The notes under the pieces are model-generated. The model saw only the letters and a program-made list of their open reading frames with translations. It did not search any database and was not told where the DNA came from. From assembly GCF_006716865.1 (NCBI RefSeq), contig NZ_VFPT01000001.1:1669001-1733000 (forward strand): DNA of 64,000 nt. Reading direction: 5' to 3'. This document shows positions 41,183 through 46,811 of the stretch, one piece after another. Source of the stretch: Roseinatronobacter monicus. GTDB taxonomy: Bacteria; Pseudomonadota; Alphaproteobacteria; Rhodobacterales; Rhodobacteraceae. Position numbers and translations under genes: made by a program. Each line of letters begins with the position of its first letter. Position 1 is the first letter of the stretch.

Positions 41183-41246
41183 TCTTCAAAACCTGTTCAT
41201 CTTGTCATATACCTAAATTGTAAAAGGTGTATCGGAGTAGTTAACA

Positions 41247-41327
41247 ATGTCCTCCACAGGGTTGCAGAAAACCTCTTTCGCCCTGTTGGTGGCGGTAATG
41301 CTCTATGTCGCGATTGTCGGGGGCTAG
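41247..41327 (+). CDS. 26-residue single-helix membrane peptide
   Basis: The ATG at 41247 opens a 26-codon frame: MSSTGLQKTSFALLVAVMLY followed by VAIVGG. About 16 residues form one hydrophobic helix after a short polar/basic N-terminus. GGAG lies about ten bases upstream, and the TAG stop is 4 bp before the xpaC ATG, which suggests coupled expression. It is below the usual annotation cut-off. I recognise no family; its placement suggests a small membrane partner of the XpaC-like protein. Confidence 0.55.
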   Translation: MSSTGLQKTSFALLVAVMLYVAIVGG

Positions 41328-41331
41328 GGAA

Positions 41332-42198
41332 ATGAGCCAGCGTTTTAGCGGGCGCTACAGCCCGAATGCCACAAAACAAGATGCGCCCGCGACCGTGGCA
41401 CGCCCGCATCCTGTCGGGGCACGTGTAAACTTGCTGTTCGTATTGCCCTTCGCTTTTGCCCTTCGCGCCTTCTTTCAGGACGCGACCGGATTGGCGTTAA
41501 ACCTTTCCGCCTTCGCCATTCTGATGTTGGCCGCATGGCTGACGCGCGAAGGGGTGCTTGCGCAGGCCGCTTACGCCGCACGCAACGTGGCGCGCAGACC
41601 CGCCATTCCGCGCAAAATTTTCGCCTCTGTGCTGACCGGCGCAGGGCTGGCTGTGGCTGCATTTGCCACAGGCGTTGTCCCCGCGATGATTTTTGCCGTG
41701 CTTGGCGCAGCCCTACATTTTGGTGCTTTCGGACCTGACCCGCTGAAAGACAAGGGAATGGAAGGGATCGACACTTTCCAGACAGACCGCGCCGCACACG
41801 CGATTGAAGAGGCAGAGCGTCACTTGACCGAGATGACAGCTGCGATCAAGCGCAGTGGTGATCGTGCCCTTGCGCGCCGTGTCGAAGGGTTTGCTGCCAA
41901 TATCCGCCCCCTGTTTCGCACAATCGAGAATGATCCGCGCAGGCTGAATTCGGCACGGCGCTATCTCGGCATCTATTTGATGGGTGCGCGCGACGCGACG
42001 GTCAAATTTGCAGAGTTTTATGCACGCAACCAAGATACAGAGGCGCGCGTTGAGTATGAAGCGCTTCTGGATGATCTGGAATCGCGCTTCTCTTTGCGAC
42101 GCGAGGCATTATTGGCAGATGACCGGACTGCCCTTGATATTGAAATCGAAGTCTTGCGCGAACGATTGGAGCGCGAAGGGCTGCGAACAAACGAATGA
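41332..42198 (+). CDS. xpaC: XpaC-like protein (5-bromo-4-chloroindolyl phosphate hydrolysis family)
   Basis: A 288-residue protein. After about 30 polar residues come hydrophobic segments around residues 32-62 and 85-120, then a soluble, charged helical domain containing EEAERHLTEMTAAIKRSGDR and ARRYLGIYLMGARDATVKFAE. This layout fits the XpaC family (named after a Bacillus subtilis gene), which is typically paired with TelA proteins, as here. Despite the name, no phosphatase motif is visible. Likely a membrane-bound coiled-coil partner of TelA. Confidence 0.8.
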   Translation: MSQRFSGRYSPNATKQDAPATVARPHPVGARVNLLFVLPFAFALRAFFQDATGLALNLSAFAILMLAAWLTREGVLAQAAYAARNVARRPAIPRKIFASVLTGAGLAVAAFATGVVPAMIFAVLGAALHFGAFGPDPLKDKGMEGIDTFQTDRAAHAIEEAERHLTEMTAAIKRSGDRALARRVEGFAANIRPLFRTIENDPRRLNSARRYLGIYLMGARDATVKFAEFYARNQDTEARVEYEALLDDLESRFSLRREALLADDRTALDIEIEVLRERLEREGLRTNE

Positions 42199-42243
42199 AA
42201 TTACCCGTACCCCGTTACAGTATATAAAAAAGAGGGATTGTCC

Positions 42244-43422
42244 ATGTCAGAAACACTCCGCGTCCAAGCCGAAGCCTTGACGCATGAAATCAGCGAACTG
42301 GTCGATACACCATTGGCCGAACCCTCGACAGAACTGGTGGTTCTTGACGACGCATCTGAGGATGACGCCAAGGCCATAAACACCCGCATGTCCGAGATTG
42401 ACATGAGCCAGACCAGCTCGATCATCGGGTTCGGGTCGCGCGCGCAGATGGATTTGCAGCAGATCAGCCAGTCAATGCTCGCTGATGTGAAAAACAAGGA
42501 TCTTGGCCCGGCAGGCGACGGCCTGCGCGAGATGGTCACAACATTGCGCGGGTTCTCCGTCAGCGAATTGGACACCCGCCGCGAGCGCAGCTGGTGGGAA
42601 CGCCTGACCGGAAAAGTTGCCCCGATGGCGAAGTTTCAGGAACGCTATTCGACTGTGCAAAGCCAGATCGACCGGATCACCGGCAATTTGTTGAACCATG
42701 AGACGACACTGCTCAAGGATATCAAGGGCCTCGACAAGCTGTATGAAAAGACGCTGGAGTTTTATCACGAGCTGGCGCTGTATATCGCGGCAGGCGAAGC
42801 GAAGATCAAGCAACTGGATACAAACGACATTCCCGCCAAGCAGACCGAGGTCGAGGCCGCCCCAGAGAATGATCAGGTGCTCAAAGCGCAGGAATTGCGC
42901 GATCTGCGCGCCGCGCGCGACGATCTGGAACGCCGGGTGCATGATCTGAAACTGACACGACAGGTCACGATGCAATCGCTGCCCTCGATCCGGCTGGTGC
43001 AGGAGAATGACAAATCACTGGTCACGAAGATCAACTCGACACTGGTCAACACTGTCCCGCTTTGGGAAACGCAGCTTGCACAGGCATTGACCATTCAACG
43101 CTCGCGCGAAGCCGCGCAAGCCGTGCGCGCGGCCAATGATCTGACCAATGATCTGCTGACCTCGAATGCCGACAACCTGCGCGACGCCAACCGCGAGGTC
43201 CGCGAGGAGATCGAGCGCGGGGTATTTGACATCGAAGCGGTGAAACAGGCCAATGATACCTTGATCGCCACAATCGAAGACAGCTTGCAGATCGCCGATG
43301 CCGGACGCGCCAAACGCGCAGAGGCTGAGGTCGAGCTGGGCAAAATGGAAGCAGAGCTGCGCCAGTCCCTGTCCTCGGCGCGCGCGCGCGACGATGACAG
43401 CGCACACCGCTCTGACGTTTGA
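42244..43422 (+). CDS. telA: Toxic anion resistance protein, TelA/KlaA family
   Basis: A 392-residue, highly charged and mostly helical cytoplasmic protein. It matches TelA-family features: SIIGFGSRAQMDLQQISQSM, VSELDTRRERSWWERLTGKV, QIDRITGNLLNHETTLLKDI with YEKTLEFYHELALYIAAGE, and the C-terminal IVDTVPLWE-like VNTVPLWETQLAQALTIQRS. Family members are linked to tellurite and antimicrobial resistance, but the mechanism is unclear. The ATG at 42244 follows GAGGGA. It is the second protein of the xpaC-telA pair. Confidence 0.9.
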   Translation: MSETLRVQAEALTHEISELVDTPLAEPSTELVVLDDASEDDAKAINTRMSEIDMSQTSSIIGFGSRAQMDLQQISQSMLADVKNKDLGPAGDGLREMVTTLRGFSVSELDTRRERSWWERLTGKVAPMAKFQERYSTVQSQIDRITGNLLNHETTLLKDIKGLDKLYEKTLEFYHELALYIAAGEAKIKQLDTNDIPAKQTEVEAAPENDQVLKAQELRDLRAARDDLERRVHDLKLTRQVTMQSLPSIRLVQENDKSLVTKINSTLVNTVPLWETQLAQALTIQRSREAAQAVRAANDLTNDLLTSNADNLRDANREVREEIERGVFDIEAVKQANDTLIATIEDSLQIADAGRAKRAEAEVELGKMEAELRQSLSSARARDDDSAHRSDV

Positions 43423-43426
43423 CATC

Positions 43427-44437
43427 ATGATGCATGCCACACCAATATCTGGACCAGCCAAAGGCCCGCGCCCGCGCAATATGACACATATTGCGGCGGG
43501 TTGCGGGTTGGTGCTTGCTTCTGGGCTGTGGCTGACGGGCTGCACATGGACACCGGGCGCGGTCGAGACGGCCGCCCCCGCCCCCGAGGCTGCATCCCCG
43601 CCCCCGCCGCAACGCGCCCAGATCGAAGTGACAGCGCCGACCGACAGCGTGTCGGCCTATTTTGAAGCACTGGAAGAACGCCGCCTCAGTGACGGGTTGA
43701 TGCGCAGCGAACGCAGCCCGCGCGACCTGCCCTTTTCGGCACGCGACCTTGAAGATATCTTTGTCCAGATTGCCCTGTACGAGGAATACAGCGTCACCGG
43801 TGACCGGATCGTTGAACGCGCAAGCCCGACCGTGTTGCGGCGTTGGCAAGATCCGGTGCGGATGCGGTTGGATTTTGGCGACGCGGTTCCTGCCTCTGTT
43901 CAGGCATCGGACCGGCGCTTTGTGTCAGGCTATGCCAGCCGCTTGAGTCGGCTGACCGGCCAGCCCATCTCGGTGGTCGAGAATGATGCGAATTTCCATG
44001 TGCTTGTGGTCAATGAGGCAGAGCGTCAGGCCATTGCGCCGCGTCTGACACGGCTGGTGCCGGGGATTGACCAAGTCACGCTTGATCTGGTGCGCGACCT
44101 GCCCCTGAGCGTGTCCTGCCTTGTTCTGGCCTTCTCGCGCAGTGGCACGGATGTCTATACCGACGCGATTGCCGTCATTCGTGCCGAATTGCCCGAATTG
44201 TCACGCCGTGCTTGCTATTATGAGGAACTGGCCCAAGGCATGGGTCTGCCCAATGACAGCCCGCGCGCGCGCCCGTCCCTGTTTAATGATACTGCCGAAT
44301 TTGCCGTTCTGACCACGCTGGATGAGCAGCTGTTGCGCATGCTCTATGATCCGCGCCTGCGGATCGGCATGCGCGAACGCGAAGCCCGCCCCGTTATCCG
44401 CCGGATCGCAGCAGAGTTGATGGGCGGGGAAAGTTAG
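43427..44437 (+). CDS. DUF2927-like lipoprotein
   Basis: A 336-residue protein. A signal sequence ends in LTGC, so it should be lipidated and exposed to the periplasm, followed by a Pro/Ala-rich linker. The body resembles DUF2927 proteins (VSAYFEALEERRLSDGLMRS; LRRWQDPVRMRLDFGD; SCLVLAFS and LPNDSPRARPSLFNDTAEFA near the end). The start is uncertain: ATG at 43427 gives a basic n-region, while ATG at 43481 gives a shorter signal; neither has a good ribosome binding site. It begins 5 bp after telA. Confidence 0.78.
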   Translation: MMHATPISGPAKGPRPRNMTHIAAGCGLVLASGLWLTGCTWTPGAVETAAPAPEAASPPPPQRAQIEVTAPTDSVSAYFEALEERRLSDGLMRSERSPRDLPFSARDLEDIFVQIALYEEYSVTGDRIVERASPTVLRRWQDPVRMRLDFGDAVPASVQASDRRFVSGYASRLSRLTGQPISVVENDANFHVLVVNEAERQAIAPRLTRLVPGIDQVTLDLVRDLPLSVSCLVLAFSRSGTDVYTDAIAVIRAELPELSRRACYYEELAQGMGLPNDSPRARPSLFNDTAEFAVLTTLDEQLLRMLYDPRLRIGMREREARPVIRRIAAELMGGES

Positions 44438-44485
44438 GCGATACTACCGACGAAGAAATTGCACATTAAAAATAAAGGTGCGGTC

Positions 44486-45598
44486 ATGGTTTTTAATTTC
44501 CTGAAGGGTCAGTTCATCGATGTCATCGAATGGACAGACGACACCCGCAACACAATGGTCTATCGCTTCGAGCGGTATGGAAACGAGATCAAATACGGCG
44601 CCAAACTGACTGTGCGCGAGGGGCAACTGGCCGTCTTCGTGCATGAGGGCCAGCTTGCCGATGTGTTCGAGCCGGGCATGTATATGCTTGAGACGAACAA
44701 CATGCCGATCATGACAACGCTGCAACATTGGAGTCACGGCTTCAACTCGCCCTTCAAGTCCGAGATATATTTCATCAATACCCGCCGCTTCGGCGGTTTG
44801 AAATGGGGCACGCAGAACCCTGTGATGCTGCGCGACCCGGAGTTCGGCCCGCTGCGTCTGCGCGCTTTCGGGTCTTATGCCGTGCGTGTGCAAGACCCCG
44901 TTGCCTTCATGCGCGAGATCGTGGGCACGGATGGCGATTTCACGCAGGAGAAAATCGCAGGCCAGATCCGCAATATCGTGGTGCAAAAGGTCAGCCGCGT
45001 GCTGGCGGCAAGCGGTATTCCGGCGCTGGACATGGCCGCCAATACCAAAGACCTGTCCGATGTGATTGGCAAAGCCATTGCGCCCACACTGACGGAATAC
45101 GGGCTGGAAATGCCCGAGCTGTATATCGAGAATATCTCGCTGCCGCCCGAAGTGGAAAAAGTGCTCGACCAGCGCACCAGCATGGGGATTGTGGGCGATC
45201 TGAACAAGTTTACCCAGTTTTCGGCTGCGCAGGCGATGCAAAAAGCCGCTGAAAGCGGCGATGGTGGCATGGGTGCGGGTTTGGGGGCCGGAATGGGTAT
45301 GGGCATGGGCATGGGTATGGCCCAAGCCATGGGCCAGTCGGTGGGCGGACAGCACGCCGCCCCTGCCGCCGCAACCCCTCCGCCCCCGCCACCCCCTGCG
45401 GCAGAGCCGATGTGGCATATTGCCGAGAACGGCCAGACGCGCGGCCCTTTCCCCCAATCGCAACTGGCAGAGCATATCACCCGCGACACACTTGTCTGGA
45501 GTGAGGGTCAGTCCGGCTGGCAAAAAGCAGGTGATATTCCTGCACTGAGCGGGCTGTTCTCGGCTACGCCACCGCCGCCACCCCCGCCGATAGGGTAA
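44486..45598 (+). CDS. SPFH-domain protein with Gly/Met linker and C-terminal GYF_2 domain
   Basis: A 370-residue protein. Residues 1-230 are an SPFH (stomatin/flotillin-like) domain of the virion-core/YdjI type: FIDVIEWTDDTRNTMVYRFE, ESQ-like LTVREGQLAVFVHEG and PELYIENISLPPEVEKVLDQ. Residues 260-283 are a Gly/Met repeat, 298-304 a proline run, 309-358 a GYF_2 (DUF4339-type) domain (MWHIAENGQTRGPFPQSQL), and 362-368 a second proline run. No membrane helix is present. The ATG at 44486 follows AAAGGTG. It probably assembles on the membrane with the zinc-ribbon protein encoded next. Confidence 0.88.
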   Translation: MVFNFLKGQFIDVIEWTDDTRNTMVYRFERYGNEIKYGAKLTVREGQLAVFVHEGQLADVFEPGMYMLETNNMPIMTTLQHWSHGFNSPFKSEIYFINTRRFGGLKWGTQNPVMLRDPEFGPLRLRAFGSYAVRVQDPVAFMREIVGTDGDFTQEKIAGQIRNIVVQKVSRVLAASGIPALDMAANTKDLSDVIGKAIAPTLTEYGLEMPELYIENISLPPEVEKVLDQRTSMGIVGDLNKFTQFSAAQAMQKAAESGDGGMGAGLGAGMGMGMGMGMAQAMGQSVGGQHAAPAAATPPPPPPPAAEPMWHIAENGQTRGPFPQSQLAEHITRDTLVWSEGQSGWQKAGDIPALSGLFSATPPPPPPPIG

Positions 45599-45644
45599 GG
45601 GCGTGCCGGATCAAGCGTTGGTCTGGTGTCTGGTATTGTAAAAT

Positions 45645-45666
45645 GAGTATTTCTGGCAAGAAAATG
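45645..45666 (+). repeat. Dispersed repeat, copy 5
   Basis: GAGTATTT, CTG, GCAAGAAAATG, in the 124-bp gap between the SPFH and zinc-ribbon genes. Flanking bases match copy 1. It has no inverted partner nearby. Confidence 0.75.
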
Positions 45667-45722
45667 AGGCTTGCCGTTGGGATGAGAGGCCGGGTCACGG
45701 CCCGCAAGATGCAGGACAGGGA

Positions 45723-46811
45723 ATGGCAACCTTACAACAAGAACACCGCTTCCCCTGTGCGCAATGCGGCGCGTCCTTGCGGTTCGAGCCGGGACAGGCG
45801 CGGCTGAGTTGCGCCTATTGTGGTCATGAACAACCCATCCCGCAGATGGATGACGCAACCCGCGGGACCGCATTGCAATCGGTCGATTATCATGACGCGG
45901 TTGCCAATGCTCTGCCACCCGAGGAGATTGAAGAGACAACGGTCGTGAATTGCGCGACCTGCGGAGCTCAGGTCGAGTTTGAAGAGCATGTGCATTCCGC
46001 AGAATGCCCGTTCTGCGCCAGTCCTGTTGTGACGGATACAGGGACACACCGGCATATCAAGCCACACGCAATTCTGGCCTTCAAGCTGAGCGAGCGCGAT
46101 GCGCATGACAAGATGTCGGCATGGTTGAAAGGGTTGTGGTTCGCCCCGTCGACACTGGCGAAATATGCCCGCAGCACAGGCAAGTTGAACGGGTTATATG
46201 TGCCCTATTGGGCCTTCGATGTCGCAACACGGTCCAGCTATTCAGGTCAGCGCGGGACGTATTACTATGTCACGACGGGCACCGGCAAAAACCGGCGGCG
46301 CGTGCGGCGCACGCGCTGGAGTGCAGCATCGGGGCAGGTCTCGCGGAAGTTTCTGGATCTGCTGGTCATGGCCGCACAATCGCTGCCGCGTGCCAATATC
46401 CGACGGCTGGAACCTTGGACCATGGCAGACCTTCAGCCCTATAATGCAGACTATCTGTCCGGTTTCAGGGCAGAGGCCTATACTGTTGAATTGCCTGACG
46501 GGTTCGAGATCGCAAAGGAACGCATGGAAGAGCAGATCCGTGCCGATATCTGCCGCGATATCGGCGGTGACGAGCAGCGCATTTCATCACTCAGTACAGA
46601 TTACAGCGACGAGCGGTTCAAGCATCTGCTTTTGCCCATCTGGATGGCCGCCTATCGTTACCGCGGCAAGAGCTACCGGTTTATCGTCAATGGCCAGACC
46701 GGGCGGGTTCAGGGTGAACGCCCCTGGTCCTGGCCGAAGATTGCGGGCGCGGTTTTGGCCGGTCTGGCCTTGCTGGCGCTGGCCTTTTTCATTGCTGAAA
46801 TGGGCGGCTAA
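45723..46811 (+). CDS. Double zinc-ribbon protein with C-terminal membrane anchor
   Basis: A 362-residue protein of the TFIIB-type zinc-ribbon group, often labelled PriA-like in databases. Two ribbons are visible: C12-x2-C15 with C30-x2-C33, and C77-x2-C80 with C95-x2-C98. A middle domain has [20 protein letters not shown] and a Tyr-rich strand pair. A single hydrophobic helix lies near residues 338-358. This matches the architecture of Bacillus YdjG, a partner of the SPFH protein YdjI. There is no helicase motif. The stop overlaps the dtd start (TAATG). Confidence 0.85.

Follow-up and report, generated by a model that had tools for sequence, protein, structure and literature searches.

To our knowledge, TelA and XpaC are widespread protein families that have no agreed biochemical role, and in Bacillus subtilis the two are encoded by the gene pair xpaC-yaaN. 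DUF2927 is listed by Pfam as a protein of unknown function. Among the SPFH proteins, YdjI of Bacillus is reported to be without a membrane helix and, together with YdjG/H, to bring PspA to the membrane (PMC8581546), and a Bacillus band-7 protein carries a C-terminal zinc ribbon according to a second report (PMC11237479). Two reports (PMC6955997, PMC9604106) list telA of R. sphaeroides among the chromosomal determinants of tellurite resistance, and a study cited in PMC12791056 credits TelA of Listeria with a contribution to nisin and cell-wall antibiotic resistance. Herein we describe an array in a stretch of Roseinatronobacter monicus DNA (64,000 nucleotides, hereafter the window) that joins TelA, XpaC and DUF2927 to an SPFH protein and a zinc-ribbon protein, and that is conserved in gene order across most of the Rhodobacteraceae loci compared. 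A literature search in which most subscription journals were outside reach found no paper with XpaC, TelA and SPFH, none with SPFH and ‘toxic anion resistance’, and none on DUF2927; the accessible text of PMC11237479 contains no occurrence of TelA, XpaC, ‘tellur’ or GYF.

A conserved six-gene array

The array comprises six genes on the + strand at positions 41247-46811. It begins with a membrane peptide of 26 residues with a single helix (41247..41327), and the stop of this frame lies 4 nt ahead of an XpaC-like membrane protein (41332..42198; 288 aa), which matches PF10112 with E 5.7e-22 over residues 101-275 and has hydrophobic segments at its N-terminus. Next are TelA (42244..43422; PF05816, E 1.6e-107), a predicted long helical protein of 392 aa, and a DUF2927 lipoprotein (43427..44437; PF11150, E 1.8e-56) with the lipobox LTGC39. 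The SPFH-GYF_2 protein (44486..45598; 370 aa) matches Band_7_1 (PF13421, E 2.9e-100) and GYF_2 (PF14237, E 4.7e-17), and the last gene encodes a double zinc-ribbon (ZR) protein of 362 aa with a C-terminal membrane helix (45723..46811). Six consecutive same-strand genes with these domains had been proposed in a reading made from the sequence alone, and the open reading frames (ORFs), Pfam matches, cysteine sets and hydropathy all agree with that description.

We surveyed 149 Rhodobacteraceae genomes, one per genus, and found an SPFH match in 136 and TelA in 133. All 13 SPFH-negative genomes are also TelA-negative. Three genomes (G022, G095 and G119) have an SPFH match without TelA; the SPFH match is a fragment in two of them, and two have a genome completeness of 78-85%. 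The closest relatives of the window’s TelA (81-88% identity) are from Natronohydrobacter, Roseinatronobacter, Roseibaca, Rhodobacteraceae metagenome-assembled genomes and one record labelled Alphaproteobacteria.

Gene order was compared in stretches of 11-15 kb around the SPFH gene from 60 of the 136 genomes, most of them with higher scores and on long contigs. The five larger genes lie on one strand in the order XpaC-TelA-DUF2927-SPFH-ZR in 52 of these 60 loci, some of which have extra genes interposed, and in one (L073) ZR is in two pieces. The exceptions have ZR inverted (L058), no DUF2927 found (L054 and L057), no XpaC found (L067), neither XpaC nor TelA within the stretch (L061), or SPFH-ZR only (L035, L041 and L084). 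A second set of 80 loci was anchored on TelA, 20 of them too short to judge; all five genes are in order in 57 of the 60 that reach at least 14 kb, the exceptions being L120, L124 and L157. The two sets overlap in genomes and hence are not independent. These neighbourhood counts show an arrangement far beyond chance, and the lack of co-occurrence that would have refuted the sequence-only reading was not seen.

Two modules and a four-gene core

The gene set has two modules, peptide-XpaC-TelA(-DUF2927) and SPFH-ZR. In three genomes (G062, G085 and G110), XpaC-TelA-DUF2927 is on a different contig (L254, L255 and L256) from SPFH-ZR (L035, L041 and L084). In a fourth (G018; L061 and L257), XpaC-TelA is about 37 kb away from DUF2927-SPFH-ZR, and in L120 SPFH-ZR is inverted as a pair. 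Median gaps are 28 nt for XpaC-TelA (133 loci), 6 nt for TelA-DUF2927 and 35 nt for DUF2927-SPFH; between SPFH and ZR the gap is longer than 300 nt at 39 of 117 loci. The split and inverted loci suggest two units, perhaps made as two transcripts.

More distant relatives were sought in 240 genomes of the class and 299 of the phylum. In the class survey TelA is above the cut-off in 20 genomes, three of them within Rhodobacteraceae. Five of the other 17 (G205, G212, G265, G279 and G369), from four families, carry an XpaC-TelA-SPFH-ZR core with no DUF2927 between, and neither SPFH nor ZR was matched in the stretches fetched from the remaining 12. Full-length ZR occurs in these five genomes and in two more (G296 and G378) where SPFH-ZR has no adjoining TelA. 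DUF2927 was found in 35 of the 240 genomes, and 29 of the 35 are without TelA above the cut-off. In the phylum survey TelA is above the cut-off in 45 genomes; among the 13 TelA loci fetched, ZR was in none and a weak SPFH match lies beside XpaC-TelA only in L238. This distribution in and outside the family suggests a core of four genes that gained DUF2927 in Rhodobacteraceae. Of the single joined locus proposed earlier, the union of the TelA-XpaC and SPFH-ZR modules stands, while the inclusion of DUF2927 does not extend to the five non-family core arrays.

A small membrane peptide and an upstream element

The peptide was sought in 133 family loci, which are both locus sets (with their shared genomes) plus L189, with start codons picked by a simple score. 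An ORF of 22-36 codons encoding a hydrophobic helix is found upstream of XpaC in 132 of the 133. Its stop is at most 13 nt from the XpaC start or overlaps it, a one-base overlap being the most common case (58 of the 133 rows, a set that includes the window), and the start codons are ATG (116), GTG (15) and TTG (2). An ORF of this kind ending within 10 nt of the start codon is found for XpaC in 54 of 55 cases, and the same control gave 0/56 for TelA, 0/17 for DUF2927, 0/60 for SPFH, 1/51 for ZR, 1/42 for dtd and 0/41 for RluB. The consensus of 18 chosen sequences is MSxTGLQKLAYxLLLxLxxYVAxxGG. The uncorrected ratio of nonsynonymous to synonymous differences (pN/pS) is 0.28 in 127 close pairs of equal length, and therefore the peptide is, on the evidence of its coding sequence, selected as a protein.

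At the lone exception, L077, the peptide frame continues as a longer frame with two helices, possibly a fusion. At the split loci the peptide is kept in L254, L255 and L256, of which L255 and L256 alone were picked up by a scan with tighter limits, and L257 has a matching frame for which no start codon was accepted by the scan. Outside the family, L173, L179 and L238 have unproven candidates, and the scan with tighter limits found no peptide in L174, L176, L178, L180, L182 or L186.

Ahead of the peptide, an alignment of 14 upstream regions places a promoter-like element at 41184..41211 on the + strand (cttcaaa ... catata). It aligns with CTTTCAA ... CYTATA of the nearest relatives and is weak in the window. 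In a motif scan of the 133 loci, 39 score at least 11, compared with 2.6 in shuffles; the window scores only 10, at a different place. Of the 133 loci, 28 (L038 and L083 among them) carry the sequence TTCCCCCTAG at a distance of 55-81 nt ahead of the peptide start, and in 23 of these 28 a CYTAnnTT box follows at a fixed 18 nt; the window’s own lineage has the related CTTTCAA/CYTATA pair in place of it. These 28 copies are the sole occurrences of TTCCCCCTAG in all loci of the set, in which some loci represent one genome twice. We also searched for TTCCCCCTAGNAA in eight genomes chosen for this or a similar motif in the upstream region; it occurs once in seven of them, at the array by coordinates in six of those seven, and a control pattern occurs once in one of the eight. 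In part of the family the peptide has a promoter-like element ahead of it, which suggests regulated expression.

Two known regulators were considered for this element and set aside. For RpoH, the element lacks the TTG that PMC3441632 describes as important in the -35 box, and for CenR, the site TGA-N8-TGA given in PMC9275681 does not match. Within the window, sigma-70-like sites number 6, compared with 2.7 (standard deviation 1.8) in shuffles, and terminator-like sites number 10, compared with 8.1 (standard deviation 2.6), and these counts were uninformative for the array; no Rfam family matches within the window at gathering scores.

The SPFH-GYF_2 and zinc-ribbon proteins

GYF domains bind proline-rich peptides. 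The SPFH protein has no membrane helix by hydropathy, and its GYF_2 domain is flanked by proline runs, the first preceding the domain and the second at the C-terminus (129 and 128 of 140 homologues, respectively). Given the binding preference of GYF domains, a testable idea is that SPFH subunits might link one another through GYF_2 and their own proline runs. No Pfam model reaches the cut-off in ZR. All 30 aligned homologues keep its eight cysteines, which are arranged as two CxxC...CxxC sets, and a hydropathy scan gives a single C-terminal segment at residues 340-358. ZR also gave two marginal matches to PADLOC defence families (E 0.017 and 0.043), and none was found for the other four array proteins.

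TelA and the absence of PspA

That the array lacks PspA had been noted from the sequence, and the wider searches uphold this: PspA (PF04012) has no match in the array or in a search of the window’s own genome. PspA is above the cut-off in 25 of the 149 family genomes; 20 of these PspA loci were fetched as stretches of 3.5-5.7 kb, and members of the five array families are absent from all 20. We considered the array as a replacement for PspA and rejected this, given that PspA is present in two (G089 and G108) of the 13 genomes negative for SPFH and TelA versus 25 of 149 overall, which is no anticorrelation.

TelA has no membrane segment by hydropathy scan, and its predicted model has three long helices plus shorter N-terminal ones (predicted local distance difference test score, pLDDT, 75.8; predicted template modelling score, pTM, 0.57). 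Weak fold matches are to axonemal coiled coils, BAR and ClyA-like helical proteins. The 50 VIA-align rows for TelA are helical bundles without PspA among them, and are uninformative either way.

A predicted matrixin fold without the zinc motif

The DUF2927 domain has the predicted fold of a matrixin (matrix metalloproteinase, MMP). In the array protein the zinc motif is replaced by E266-E-x-x-Q270-x-x-G-x-x-N276-D277, and EExxQxxGxxND is present in 129 of the 133 array members reaching the motif. Phe286, which by eye lies near the Met-turn position, is invariant in 50 aligned members.

Profile comparisons gave mixed results. A profile of array DUF2927 proteins fails to reach solved MMPs, and the same array-only profile (A1) gave P 0.46 against eight bacterial M10 domains, which come from the 8 of 23 examined loci showing the motif; a joint set of 66 sequences gave P 0.062. 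A diverse DUF2927 set (A7) matched the M10 profile with a probability of 55% (P 1.2e-4, score 36.7), and its controls scored 14.8 at best in 38 column-shuffled versions, with two further versions yielding no match, 12.7 when reversed and at most 19.1 with five unrelated alignments. Proof of the matrixin relationship from sequence was rejected, in that the support depends on five relatives bearing HExxH.

Residues E266, E267, Q270, G273 and D277 are invariant in the same 50 members, and conservation this strict suggests a working site; a few distant DUF2927 members also keep HExxHxxGxxxH. DUF2927 might therefore, rather than being a pseudo-protease, work as a metalloenzyme through an unusual set of ligands. 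However, HExxH is found in 0 of the 133 array members reaching the motif and the matrixin zinc-ligand positions are replaced, and we judge an active enzyme somewhat unlikely.

Other members of the family were encountered along the way. One DUF2927 protein with HExxHxxGxxxH (L217:2459-3160) raises the prospect that the family includes working metallopeptidases. The window’s own genome has a second DUF2927 protein outside the window (L198, G000:C1:1634985-1635584; 450 aa) with an EExxQ-type motif, and one further genome has a cluster of DUF2927 matches, seven by search count (L215, G307:C1:45000-64900, on to 66787).

Genes flanking the array

The genes flanking the array are housekeeping genes. 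An RluB-like pseudouridine synthase gene lies 147 nt upstream of the array start, and the downstream end is marked by the ZR stop, which shares one base with the ATG of dtd. In the window ZR directly abuts dtd, unlike the 32 of 60 loci in which a cluster with a PfkB sugar kinase as representative lies, by median position, between ZR and dtd (for example L086:11400-12296). At 10 of 60 loci (for example L080:10426-11244) a gene cluster with a TerC representative (PF03741) lies close to the array start, on the upstream side of XpaC; the TerC assignment rests on one scanned member, and there is no TerC in the window’s array. A few loci (L086, L088, L157 and others) have a second, weaker XpaC-like match ahead of XpaC.

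Possible functions of the array

The most likely reading, to which we give even chances, is that these genes form a conserved, PspA-independent membrane-maintenance array or complex with a periplasmic pseudo-protease arm, a function proposed by analogy. Like YdjI with YdjG/H of B. subtilis, SPFH and ZR would build a scaffold at the inner membrane, on its cytoplasmic side. A membrane receptor made up of XpaC and the small peptide would bring TelA, a predicted long helical soluble protein, to the scaffold, where TelA would take the role that belongs to PspA elsewhere. GYF_2 might cross-link SPFH subunits, and the DUF2927 lipoprotein, with its altered metal ligands, would serve as a periplasmic binding or sensing arm rather than as a classical protease. 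Under membrane or oxyanion stress, the whole set could serve to stabilise the envelope or to repair it. A more specific version, which we regard as possible but doubtful, is an envelope-spanning, PspA-independent repair machine in which TelA is the helical element that remodels or stabilises, loaded by XpaC and the peptide on the SPFH-GYF_2/ZR scaffold and gated by a matrixin-derived periplasmic lipoprotein that no longer cuts but binds a partner or a different metal.

Several observations weigh against a membrane-maintenance complex of this kind. The modules can stand apart; G378 has SPFH-ZR without any TelA match, and TelA is without neighbouring SPFH-ZR in 12 of the 17 non-family genomes. 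Most of the 25 genomes bearing PspA also have the array, and therefore the array does not strictly replace PspA. A Foldseek search with TelA returned no solved fold under E 0.001 (best 0.011), and TelA as a homologue of PspA or ESCRT-III was rejected after hhalign of TelA (A2) versus 20 family PspA sequences gave a probability of 15%; given these two results, TelA as a stand-in for PspA is an analogy. For DUF2927, removal of the five HExxH rows from A7 lowers the score to 17.2 (P 0.13) with the register unchanged, and the matrixin assignment rests mainly on the predicted fold.

TelA is named ‘toxic anion resistance protein’ in Pfam, and together with the tellurite determinant listed for R. sphaeroides and the TerC-representative cluster found close to XpaC in 10 of the 60 loci, this name favours a narrow tellurite or toxic-oxyanion resistance locus, in which TelA and XpaC keep tellurite out or render it harmless, helped by the other proteins. 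We consider such a narrow role unlikely. TelA occurs in 133 of the 149 genera, a spread more suggestive of a core role than of niche metal resistance, the cited contribution of Listeria TelA to nisin and cell-wall antibiotic resistance points to the envelope, and none of the six genes resembles a reductase or transporter in a Pfam scan. We think that an envelope role fits both the Listeria and the R. sphaeroides resistances, as cited, better than metal chemistry does.

The near-universal presence of the genes in the family and their housekeeping flanks would also suit a constitutive function, such as membrane-protein quality control or domain organisation by SPFH, with no response to stress. 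However, SPFH and TelA are both absent from 13 genomes, so the array is not essential in all of them, and the promoter-like element in part of the family suggests regulated expression; a purely constitutive role accordingly seems improbable to us. That the two modules are mere neighbours through general synteny, as their separation in several genomes and the wide SPFH-ZR gaps might imply, is very unlikely when the same four genes are together in four other families, loss is shared in 13 of 13 genomes and the other median gaps are short.

The conserved array places TelA, XpaC and DUF2927 beside an SPFH-ZR pair whose Bacillus counterpart has been studied. The role of TelA becomes genetically testable, and the array may be a case of membrane surveillance without need for PspA. 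Peptide conservation, the predicted matrixin fold, the promoter-like element and the two-module split go beyond the first description of the locus: DUF2927 gains a predicted fold, and the peptide is a conserved membrane protein short enough that gene finders may miss it.

Comparison with known systems

The DUF2927 domain shares with matrixins (matrix metalloproteinases, karilysin) the predicted fold, the active-site helix and an LT..D...LY helix near the C-terminus. It differs in that HExxHxxGxxH becomes EExxQxxGxxN(D), in having Phe286, by eye, near the Met-turn, and in being a lipoprotein. Catalytically inactive peptidase folds are described as envelope regulators in a report on LytM-like factors (PMC8416486); the likeness is in the general idea only. 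The DUF2927 fold is unrelated, and no link to peptidoglycan emerged here.

With pspA-ydjGHI (ydjFGHI) of B. subtilis the array shares an SPFH protein without an N-terminal membrane helix and a zinc-ribbon membrane protein. PF13421 also matches B. subtilis in our control set, and ZR has the YdjG-like architecture of a double zinc ribbon plus membrane helix, a likeness of architecture alone. In contrast to ydjFGHI, the array has no PspA and, by Pfam, no TPM protein (the YdjH partner) among its six genes, and its SPFH protein bears GYF_2 whereas the Bacillus band-7 protein, as described in the report cited above, bears a C-terminal zinc ribbon. The SPFH-ZR pair is here joined to TelA, XpaC, DUF2927 and a small peptide.

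The TelA/XpaC pairs of B. subtilis (xpaC-yaaN) and Listeria (lmo1966-1967) likewise have XpaC adjoining TelA, and the TelA search also matches B. subtilis in the control set. To this pair the array adds a preceding peptide of 22-36 codons, followed after TelA by DUF2927, SPFH-GYF_2 and ZR.

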